Below, one piece after another: positions 29,109 to 32,167 of a stretch of 64,000 nucleotides of DNA; the stretch's first letter is position 1; each line of letters begins with the position of its first letter. The stretch is from Variovorax brevis. GTDB lineage: Bacteria; Pseudomonadota; Gammaproteobacteria; Burkholderiales; Burkholderiaceae_C. The DNA lies in assembly GCF_030317105.1 (NCBI RefSeq), contig NZ_JASZYG010000008.1, positions 248,001 through 312,000 of the forward strand, given 5' to 3'. The translations under genes and the position numbers were made by a program. Under the pieces are notes generated by a model, which was not told the origin of the DNA, made no database searches, and was given only the letters and a program-made list of their open reading frames with translations.

Positions 29109-29531
29109 TCACAAGGCGCGCCATTCGTCCAGGCAGTGCGCGGCCAGCGCCGTGACCCAGCACCGTTCGCCCGGATCGAAGGCAAGGCCGAATCGCGGCG
29201 AGACGAGCATGCCGGCCCGTTCGAACAGCGCCGGGTCTGAAGTTCGCACAAAGGACGCCAGCACGCCGAAGGGCACCGACACGTTGCCGAATTGAAGCAC
29301 CGGCGCCTGCTGCGTGATTTCTTCCAGCCGGCCGCAGTCCTGAAAGCGGTAGATCACATCGCCGTAGTCCAGTTCGTTCAGGCCGATGCCGTTGCGGCAC
29401 ACAAGGGCGGGCGTGCCGCGCAGGCGCAAGACATCCTCCTGCGTGGCCGAGAAAGAAACGTCGTCGACGCGTATGAAGGGCTCCAGTTGCATGGCGCCGT
29501 TCAGTATGCGCGCGAGCGGCGAAGTGGGCAC
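29109..29531 (-). CDS. conserved-looking protein of unknown function
   Basis: I do not recognise this 140-residue protein. It is soluble with mixed alpha/beta composition and no signal peptide or repeat. A more likely start is the Met at residue 14 (MQLEPFIRVDDVSFSA, position 29492), because the preceding residues are less protein-like. It contains DYGDVIYRFQDCGRLEEI and a C-terminal helix with CWVTALAAHCLDEW. It stands alone between an operon on its own strand and the AI-2E fusion gene transcribed away from it. Confidence 0.5.
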   Translation of the reverse strand: MPTSPLARILNGAMQLEPFIRVDDVSFSATQEDVLRLRGTPALVCRNGIGLNELDYGDVIYRFQDCGRLEEITQQAPVLQFGNVSVPFGVLASFVRTSDPALFERAGMLVSPRFGLAFDPGERCWVTALAAHCLDEWRAL

Positions 29532-29665
29532 TTCCCGTCATCGCCCAGTTCACCAAGGCCGTGGGCGCGTGTCCTGCAAGCTTTGGGTGATCCGTCCGGC
29601 AGTCCGGAGAGGGGTGCGTCACCACACTCAAGATGACCGTCATCCCGGCGGCACGAGGCGGAGGC

Positions 29666-32167
29666 ATGGTGGATAGAGACAACCCGGACGAGCCCGTCGA
29701 GCATTTCGGCGAACGCGCCCGCGCGCAAGGTCGCGATGCGCTCGCGCAAGCGGCAGGTGTGCCCGCGCCGCAGGAGCGGTCGATTCATCACCTGCTGCCC
29801 GAACTCAAGCTGCTTATCGGCCTGGCCACGGCCGGCCTCATCATCGGTGCGCTTTATTTCGGGCGCGAGATCCTCATGCCACTGGCACTCGCGCTGCTGC
29901 TGGGTTTCATGCTCGATCCGCTGGTCGTGCGCCTGCGCCACTGGGGCCTGCCGCGAATGCCGGCTGTCGTCGTGGTGGTGGTGTTCGCGCTCACCATGCT
30001 CGGACTGGCGGGCGCATTCCTGGGCAGCCAGGTGAGTTCGCTGAGCACGCAGCTGCCCACCTACCAGAGCAACATCAAGACCAAGCTGCGCGACCTGCGG
30101 CAAAGCGCGAACAAACCCGGCCTCTTCGACGGCGCCGTGAAGACCTACGACACCTTCAAGCATGAGGTCGAAGGCACGGCAGACGCCAAGCGTGGCGCGG
30201 GTCCGCCACCGCCGCAGCGCGTGGAAGTCGAGCCGCGTCGGCCGGCGCCGCTGGAGCAGGCAGTGCAATGGCTGGAGGCCAGCAGCGGGCCGCTCGCGCA
30301 GGCCGGCATCGTGCTGGTGTTCATGGTGCTGATCCTGCTCGACCGCCTGGATCTGCGCGACCGGCTGCTGCGTCTGTGGGGCGGCACGCTGCATCGCTCG
30401 ACCGACGCCATGGACGAAGCCGGGCGGCGCATCAGCCGCTACCTCACGATGCAGCTCGTGGTGAACCTCAGCTACGGCGTGCCGATGGCGGCGGGCTTGT
30501 GGATCATCGGCGTGCCGGGCGCGATCCTCTGGGGCGCGGTGGCGGCGGTCATGCGCTTCGTGCCTTACGTGGGGCCGCTGATCGCTTCGATCTTTCCGGT
30601 TGTGCTGGCCTTTGCGGTGGACCCGGGATGGACGATGGTGTTGTGGGTCATCGGGCTCATCGTCGTGCTGGAACTCGTCAGCAACAACCTCATCGAGCCT
30701 TGGCTCTATGGCGCGAGCACGGGACTGTCGGCCATGTCGCTCATGGTCGCAGCCACCTTCTGGACGGCGCTGTGGGGCCCGGTGGGGCTGATCATGTCGA
30801 CGCCGCTCACGGTGTGCCTGCTGGTCATCGGCCGGCACCTGCCGCGGCTGAAGTTCCTGGATGTTCTGCTGGGCAGCCAGCCCGCGCTGGATACGCCGTC
30901 GCGCATCTATCAACGCGTGCTGGCCGGCGACGTGGACGAAGCGATCGAGCTGGCCGCCAAGCAGGTGGCCGACGCGGACCTGGTTGCGTTCTATGACGCG
31001 TCGGGCCTGCCTGTGCTGCGCATGGCCTCCAGCGATCACACGGTGGTGGCGACGGCCGAGCATCGTCATCGGGTCGTGGTCGGCATGGACGCGCTCCTCG
31101 ATGCGCTGCGCGCCGACTTCTCGGGTGGCTTTGCCGAGGGGATGCGGCCGACGGTGGTGTGCATCGGCGGCAAGTGGGAAGTCGACACGCTCGCGGCCAA
31201 GATGCTTGCGCACGCTCTCACGCTGCAGGGCCAGCATGCCGACCATCGCCCAGCCGCGACGCTGAGCGCGGACTACATCGCGGGGCTGGACCTCACGGAC
31301 GCGCAGGCGGTGTGCTTGTCGTACTTCAGCACCGACCCGCGCGAGGATGCGGCGCACTTCTGCCGCCGGCTGCGCCGCCGCTGGCCCGACGTCAAGATCG
31401 TGCTCGCCCTGTGGAATGCGCCGCCCGAACTGCTCACGGAGGATGCGAGCAGTTCAGTGCGCGCCGATGCGGTTGTCACCTCGATGAGCGAGGCCATCAT
31501 CCGGCTGGCGGAACTCACGGGCGTCAATCTCAGCGAAGGCTTTGTGCAGGCGCCCGTGCTGGCCACGGACCCCAAGCGCCTGGAGGCGCTCAACGCGAGC
31601 GGGGCACTCGACGCACGCGCCAAGCCGATCTTCGACCTGGCGGCCAAGCACGCGGCGGACATCTTCGATGTGCCGATGGCGATGGTGTCACTCATCGACG
31701 CCACCGAGCAGATCACGGCGGGCTCCTTCGGCAACTTGCCGATGGCGGACGCGCCGTCGCAGGAAGAGGAAGCGCAAACGGGCGGTCCGAGGCTGCCCCG
31801 ATCCGTGTCGCTGTGCGGCCACGTCGTCGCCGATGCGCGCACGCTGGTGGTGCCAGACCTGACGCGCGACTTGCGCTTTGCGGGCAACCCGGCCGTGCAG
31901 GCGCGGGGCATGCGCTTTTATGCCGGGGCTGCGCTGCGCAATGAAGACGGCCTGGCCATCGGCACGCTGTGCATCCTGGATGTGGAGGCGCACACGCTCA
32001 GCAAGCGGGAAGTGCACCTGCTGGAATCCATGGCCACCGACGTGATGGAGGCCTTGCGCGAGGCGGCGGCGAAATGGGGCGAAGCGATCACGGTGCCTGT
32101 GAAGGCGGATCAAGTCGTCGGGCCCACGGCCATCGTGGGGCAACTGGTGCCGATGCCTGAAGGTTGA
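29666..32167 (+). CDS. AI-2E family transporter fused to a cytoplasmic region ending in a GAF domain
   Basis: An 833-residue protein. Residues about 40-385 form the AI-2E/PerM-type permease: paired N-terminal helices from LLIGLATAGLIIGALYFGRE, a large soluble loop near 115-220, then helices with VMRFVPYVGPLIASIFP and ELVSNNLIEPWLYGAS. Residues about 390-640 are a soluble alpha/beta region with VVCIGGKWEVDTLAAKMLAH and FCRRLRRRWPDVKIVLALWN, which looks receiver- or cobalamin-domain-like but is not assigned. Residues about 650-815 resemble a GAF domain (MVSLIDATEQITAGSFG, SLCGHVVADARTLVVPD, FYAGAALRNEDGLAIGTLCI). Typical family members are near 350 residues. The ATG at 29666 follows GGCGGAGG; a Met 11 codons upstream lacks a ribosome site. 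Confidence 0.82.
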   Translation: MVDRDNPDEPVEHFGERARAQGRDALAQAAGVPAPQERSIHHLLPELKLLIGLATAGLIIGALYFGREILMPLALALLLGFMLDPLVVRLRHWGLPRMPAVVVVVVFALTMLGLAGAFLGSQVSSLSTQLPTYQSNIKTKLRDLRQSANKPGLFDGAVKTYDTFKHEVEGTADAKRGAGPPPPQRVEVEPRRPAPLEQAVQWLEASSGPLAQAGIVLVFMVLILLDRLDLRDRLLRLWGGTLHRSTDAMDEAGRRISRYLTMQLVVNLSYGVPMAAGLWIIGVPGAILWGAVAAVMRFVPYVGPLIASIFPVVLAFAVDPGWTMVLWVIGLIVVLELVSNNLIEPWLYGASTGLSAMSLMVAATFWTALWGPVGLIMSTPLTVCLLVIGRHLPRLKFLDVLLGSQPALDTPSRIYQRVLAGDVDEAIELAAKQVADADLVAFYDASGLPVLRMASSDHTVVATAEHRHRVVVGMDALLDALRADFSGGFAEGMRPTVVCIGGKWEVDTLAAKMLAHALTLQGQHADHRPAATLSADYIAGLDLTDAQAVCLSYFSTDPREDAAHFCRRLRRRWPDVKIVLALWNAPPELLTEDASSSVRADAVVTSMSEAIIRLAELTGVNLSEGFVQAPVLATDPKRLEALNASGALDARAKPIFDLAAKHAADIFDVPMAMVSLIDATEQITAGSFGNLPMADAPSQEEEAQTGGPRLPRSVSLCGHVVADARTLVVPDLTRDLRFAGNPAVQARGMRFYAGAALRNEDGLAIGTLCILDVEAHTLSKREVHLLESMATDVMEALREAAAKWGEAITVPVKADQVVGPTAIVGQLVPMPEG

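Follow-up and report, generated by a model that had tools for sequence, protein, structure and literature searches.

An AI-2E-type permease fused to a probable degenerate cobalamin-type module and a GAF domain in Variovorax brevis and other proteobacteria

The only description of an AI-2E transporter joined to a cobalamin-type domain that we found in the open-access literature is that of HaAI-2E (WP_052573826; FEBS J 2024, PMC11796333). In the accessible part of that paper, HaAI-2E is composed of an AI-2E part, a CBD and a diguanylate cyclase, with an Arg at the position of the cobalt-ligating His. It bound hydroxocobalamin, but not the adenosyl or methyl form of cobalamin, was called light-independent and served as a negative control for light sensing. 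Members of the AI-2E family may differ in function, and the available text of another study treats one of them as a Na+(Li+)/H+ antiporter (PMC7221264). The protein described here contains the AI-2E-CBD unit, which, judging from the accessible literature, has appeared in print once, as HaAI-2E, with a different third domain. Compared by description only, both proteins consist of an AI-2E part, a cobalamin-type domain lacking the cobalt His and a signalling-type domain. In HaAI-2E the third domain is a diguanylate cyclase and Arg takes the place of the His, whereas the fusion protein has a GAF domain and Asp. No account of the GAF-bearing form was found in the open-access literature searched.

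The window is the whole 64,000-nucleotide stretch of Variovorax brevis DNA that was analysed. Translation of its ORFs gives a single stop-free frame of 833 residues at 29666-32167 on the plus strand. An alternative in-frame ATG lies at 29633, 33 bases 5' of the ATG at 29666, and would give a product of 844 aa; GGCGGAGGC precedes the ATG at 29666. The fusion gene stands alone on its strand, as all eight flanking ORFs examined are on the minus strand. One of these, an ORF of 140 aa (29109-29531), is divergent from the fusion gene and has no Pfam match at E 0.001. The features are as follows:

29666..32167, plus strand: whole gene, 833 aa (844 aa from the alternative start at 29633)
29813..30829, plus strand: AI-2E/PerM permease domain, residues 50-388 (Pfam PF01594, E 3.2e-49; TqsA 7nb6, Z 25.4 over 319 residues)
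30893..31117, plus strand: predicted four-helix cap, residues 410-484, with H466-R467 (AlphaFold model; conservation); helices at 410-419, 423-436, 439-460 and 464-484 in the AlphaFold model
31154..31519, plus strand: predicted Rossmann (B12-binding-like) domain, residues 497-618 (AlphaFold models; fold matches; profile alignment)
31628..32056, plus strand: GAF domain, residues 655-797 (Pfam PF01590, E 1.1e-12; Dcsbis 4zmu, Z 23.1 over 169 residues)
32090..32164, plus strand: tail of low confidence, residues 809-833, ending in a conserved xGQxVP-like motif (pLDDT <50; motif counts)
Flanking ORFs, all minus strand: SBP_bac_3, MmgE/PrpD, TctC, the 140-aa ORF, IclR, SDR, TctC, SDR

An earlier note on this DNA had placed an AI-2E permease in the first 385 residues and a GAF domain further on in the same frame, with no stop between them and with neither a kinase nor a cyclase domain, and all of this is borne out. 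The Pfam AI-2E match scores 168.3 bits against a cut-off of 34.3 and covers positions 2-322 of the 327 in the model; the GAF match scores 49.1 bits against 22.4. Besides AI-2E and a B12-binding match below threshold, GAF is the sole further domain by Pfam, and no kinase or cyclase family was matched in the chain by Pfam or NCBIfam. The NCBIfam matches, all below their cut-offs, are three of the AI-2E type and NifA across the GAF part. In the full AlphaFold model the permease has the fold of TqsA, the E. coli AI-2 exporter (rmsd 4.5, 25% identity). The TqsA chain of 344 residues leaves no room for a module, whereas the fusion protein carries the module and GAF. The three other AI-2E matches in the window's genome lie in open frames of 363-430 aa, the usual size. 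Regarding the GAF domain, its nearest structure is that of Dcsbis (30% identity), a GAF-diguanylate cyclase of P. aeruginosa; the GAF fold is common to both, but the Dcsbis chain continues into the cyclase, whereas the GAF domain of the fusion protein is terminal except for the tail. Weaker relatives of the GAF domain alone (30-40% identity) occur in other proteins of the window's genus, and the fusion GAF is therefore of a common kind. The order AI-2E, middle module, GAF is near certain.

LuxS was found in none of 20 carrier genomes, the window's genome (99.8% complete) included; the control search recovered it in five of 14 known genomes, E. coli and B. subtilis among them. Self-made AI-2 is therefore doubtful as a substrate, and since the 20 genomes are carriers of the fused module, so is the name 'AI-2 exporter' for this protein. 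Judged from these gene contents, export of self-made AI-2 is unlikely.

The region between permease and GAF had been read as an unassigned alpha/beta stretch. The alpha/beta part of that reading stands, corresponding to the Rossmann domain, whereas 'unassigned' no longer does, as the fold is recognisable. According to the models, the region is very likely a degenerate cobalamin-type module (PF02607 + PF02310 fold) with a four-helix cap, in which the cobalt ligand has been lost. The structure prediction that the earlier note proposed gave a confident fold: the module alone has a mean pLDDT of 87 and a pTM of 0.86, and in the full-length model (75-row alignment, overall pTM 0.67) 20 of the 21 ten-residue blocks at 411-620 reach at least 90, with weaker values (block means of 65-79) at 351-410, the junction with the membrane part. 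Four helices (410-484) are followed by a domain of alternating strands and helices (497-618). In a Foldseek search with the module model, B12 and SCHIC proteins appear throughout the 50 rows listed, with a best E of 3.4e-6. A structural second look, which re-examined the Foldseek matches and is no independent search, placed only cobalamin or SCHIC types at ranks 1-47, the later of which match the Rossmann part only. The top match is photocobilin 8j2y (Z 19.2, 204 residues, rmsd 3.3), and others include AppA SCHIC (Z 18.0-18.1), a MerR-type B12 domain (16.8), AerR (16.0), MetH (15.3) and CarH (~14). Another Rossmann fold for this region was rejected, as the first other fold, a CpaE chain, appears only at rank 48 (Z 11.3), behind the cobalamin-type domains.

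Several of the cobalamin/SCHIC-type matched domains are known to sense cobalamin, heme or light, according to the accessible parts of the papers concerned (PMC10979010, PMC9144470, PMC11796333). Photocobilins and CarH (8j2y, 8j2w, 5c8d) have the module fold in common with the fusion protein (Z 14-19), as well as the EH pair of the cap (E465-H466), but they have a cap Trp and a cobalt His, both absent here. AppA SCHIC (4heh, 4hh0-4hh3) has the same four-helix cap and Rossmann domain as the fusion module (Z 18-19, 14-15% identity), and the cobalt ligand position is altered in both. Its heme His lies two positions away from the site of the cobalt His, a place at which the fusion protein has no His; it also differs in the loop past strand 3, which has five residues in the fusion protein (554-558) and eight in AppA as reported in the accessible text of PMC9144470.

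Sequence comparisons point the same way. The Pfam B12-binding family (PF02310) matches residues 505-580 below its cut-off (E 0.0012, 19.1 bits for the whole protein against 32.1; E 8.6e-5, 22.8-23.1 bits for the module fragment alone against the same cut-off), and a match at E up to 1 is present in eight of 12 module members. A profile of the module aligned collinearly over 189-190 columns with a profile of 14 Burkholderiales B12-type proteins (P 9e-6 and 9e-5). The score was 37.2, whereas 50 column shuffles reached no more than 24.7 and reversal gave 13.6; for the deeper alignment A5 and the same B12-type profile it was 32.8, with corresponding values of 21.0 and 20.0 (P 4.5e-4). This B12-type set, judged by eye to be mostly MerR/LitR-like proteins, comprises 14 of 17 fetched loci, two having been left out for lack of the frame-picking motif and one (L167) for a wrong frame. 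Alignment with 30 MetH-type regions was not significant for either profile (P 0.16 and 0.23), and searching solved structures by the module sequence alone gave no credible match (best E 0.1). Alignment A3 has 75 of the 81 possible rows (the window protein and 80 loci, without L046, L050, L076, L083, L097 and L106), and A5 has 74, L090 being left out as well. Mean column conservation over 75 rows is 0.65 in the cap (401-490), 0.57 in the Rossmann part (491-625), 0.72 in AI-2E and 0.57 in GAF. These values and the confident predicted fold rule out a mere linker, the unconserved stretch that the earlier note had named as grounds for abandoning its reading.

In the profile alignment the DxHxxG motif falls on E505-V-D507-T-L-A510, and the cobalt-ligating His is thus replaced by Asp507. 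The conservation of this site was followed in a comparison set of 115 rows (without L046, L050, L083, L097, L106 and L194), where GAF labels rest on aligned length over 650-800, with Pfam run on six rows. The window protein and some near-copies are counted among the 83 GAF-bearing rows (L057 and L122 do not differ across the tree columns), and the 32 rows labelled GAF-less include L104, so labelled because its contig ends and excluded from motif and tail counts, which use 31 GAF-less rows. Asp occupies position 507 in 83/83 GAF-bearing rows and in 31/32 labelled GAF-less, and the window protein has no His at 503-511, the cobalt His of GxxH being absent. As the cobalt His has given way to Asp507, ordinary B12 binding by the module appears unlikely. 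The AppA-type heme His would be expected at 505 or 509 in the profile register, where the window protein has E505 and L509; a His lies near Asp507 in three of the 83 rows, at 508 in L078 and L125 and at 509 in L120. The last, from Acinetobacter, has its His two residues past the Asp507 equivalent, one possible place for an AppA-like heme ligand. H466 of the EH pair is kept in 78/83 GAF-bearing rows and E465 in 65/83, and H466, W504 and H516 occur together in 75/83; the eight rows without the full set include L100 and L125, which lack all three. In the 32 rows with the GAF-less label, W504 and H516 each occur once, in the contig-end row L104. Two pairs of cysteines are also frequent in the GAF-bearing rows: C499 and C550 are both Cys in 70/83, and C717 and C769 are Cys in 73/83 and 74/83, respectively.

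The fusion is real and conserved and did not arise by chance, and its architecture is kept in many environmental proteobacteria. AI-2E, module and GAF recur together in 83 rows, window protein included. A pattern scan of 84,980 species genomes with the C-terminal 442 residues, which overlooks distant members, gave 116 pattern matches, 105 of them relatives. Among the best 80 of these 105, at least 400 of the 442 query residues are matched in 77 loci, and the carriers are Comamonadaceae, other Burkholderiales, Bradyrhizobium, Bosea, Paracoccus, Acinetobacter and others. Variovorax and other Comamonadaceae are the closest named relatives. The scan of viral contigs gave 34 pattern matches and zero relatives. 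The module is present in 200 plasmid records, 75 of them from Sinorhizobium, and where the 60 matches listed carry an annotation it is AI-2E transporter. The best two plasmid matches (Comamonadaceae and Nitrobacter) align as one uninterrupted stretch that covers 92% and 89% of the length, with 63% and 53% identity. The form without GAF is commoner than the GAF-bearing one. The module was found in 32 of 398 genomes of the window's phylum, two near threshold, mostly in frames of 627-741 aa, and Pfam confirmed GAF in five of the 32, the long frames L185 and L186 having none. Within the window's genus, the module is matched in 22 of the 101 genomes (15 at E <1e-70), so that the gene counts as accessory; the copy in one of them is chromosomal, since that genome consists of a single contig. 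Another genome of the genus has what is apparently a decayed copy, the module appearing as four matches in three frames (G530, contig C4, 3375-4069).

A tree of 80 of the 115 rows, made by a quick method and with two long branches meeting (L005, L193), can be explained by one change of GAF state, with an unstarred SH-aLRT of 85 on the GAF branch. Shuffled GAF states need ~23 changes on average, and 0/500 shuffles were as low as the observed one; the GAF-bearing tree rows were mostly sought on purpose with GAF-bearing queries. L100 and L125 branch apart from the 50 other GAF-bearing tree rows and have a GR-type site in place of H466/W504/H516, which suggests that GAF was acquired earlier than this signature. 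In Acinetobacter, two plasmid copies adjoining an IS1 element (L036, L037) match only from residue ~150 and are therefore without the first helices. Regarding the gene neighbourhood, no neighbour is conserved across the family in 86 loci (80 genome, five plasmid and the window). The largest common neighbour cluster, of ABC type and on both strands, covers 15/86 loci, and several clusters of 6-7 loci are lineage-bound, with examples in Acinetobacter among others. No Pfam family occurs in more than four of 107 neighbour proteins, picked from 127 ORFs by omitting 12 of >700 aa and eight look-alikes, with 12 loci skipped.

We propose, with a probability of roughly 0.55, that the fusion protein acts as a pentameric exporter, which a cytosolic module gates by sensing a ligand or redox state. 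Within a single membrane protein, an AI-2E-type exporter, presumably pentameric as TqsA is, would carry on its cytosolic C-terminus a sensory module made of the cobalamin-module fold without cobalt ligand, followed by GAF. This module would bind a cytosolic small molecule or answer to redox state, the change would be relayed via the cap helices and the short linker (389-409) into the membrane part, and export would thereby be opened or closed. We infer the pentamer, the cytosolic side of the module, the ligand and the gating. This mechanism is favoured by the domain order and its conservation, by the confident module fold with its sensor-type matches, by a diguanylate cyclase GAF as the nearest relative and by the joint retention of H466, W504 and H516. 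The diguanylate cyclase that follows the AI-2E-CBD unit in the described part of HaAI-2E also fits a signalling role. Against it stand the lack of a family-wide partner gene among the neighbours, the absence of an output enzyme from the chain, the patchy, accessory occurrence in the genus, the more weakly modelled permease-module junction and the selective cobalamin binding and light-independence described for HaAI-2E (PMC11796333, accessible text). A more specific and tentative version, which we think has a rather small chance of being right, is that the defunct cobalamin site was remodelled in the clade with GAF so as to accommodate a different cofactor, for instance heme, some other tetrapyrrole or a metal, with H466, W504, H516 and D507 among the candidate residues. 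The redox or ligand state of this cofactor would, together with the GAF ligand, directly gate the pentameric exporter. If true, this would be a ligand-gated AI-2E exporter.

The cap and Rossmann domains could instead serve only assembly or partner binding. The soluble half might be mainly a docking platform, binding a partner as AppA SCHIC binds PpsR and allowing the transporter to recruit or sequester a regulator at the membrane. The AppA-PpsR complex ranks high in the fold matches (4hh3, Z 18.1) and the SCHIC-PpsR contact is described in the accessible text of PMC9144470. Moreover, the predicted disordered tail, which may be an extra docking peptide, has the loosened xGQxVP motif in 56/83 GAF-bearing rows and 0/31 GAF-less ones (the stricter motif in 49/83, with shuffled tails averaging 0.6). 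However, no conserved neighbour gene offers itself as the partner, and the old cofactor-site residues W504, E505 and D507 are conserved as well, so we regard docking as a rather unlikely main role. That the extension is a structural relic, stabilising the oligomer and sensing nothing, would suit the lost classical ligand, the missing partner and the patchy distribution; it is improbable given that the conservation of module and GAF is little below that of the transporter and that several residues are near-invariant.

Continued corrinoid binding by the module in a His-independent mode, which would make the exporter answer to cobalamin status, is suggested by the fold and Pfam resemblance to B12 modules and by HaAI-2E, which, in the text available (PMC11796333), bound hydroxocobalamin without that His. 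Yet the invariant Asp507, the absence of Trp from 448-460, the place of the CarH-type cap Trp, in all 83 GAF-bearing rows and the failure of HaAI-2E to bind adenosyl- or methylcobalamin leave this quite improbable. A translation restart near residue 400, giving two products, could use in-frame GTG and ATG codons at 373-474, and the annotation splits one Acinetobacter plasmid copy into two genes. Another such copy with the same neighbour proteins is nevertheless annotated as one gene, no clear Shine-Dalgarno sequence was seen by eye ahead of the internal codons, and membrane and GAF parts share one open frame across the 83 GAF-bearing rows. We therefore find no sign of the split product that the earlier note had considered, and a restart is hardly credible.

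Overall, the soluble half of the fusion protein is likely to have a regulatory role, and an intracellular signal probably controls the putative exporter via its C-terminal module. AI-2E proteins are widespread, but little is known of what they transport and how they are controlled. Here a control part has apparently been built into the exporter chain itself, from a fold with relatives that sense cobalamin, heme or light. A soluble domain with a ligand that can be searched for directly would open a route to finding out when these exporters transport, and perhaps also which substrates.
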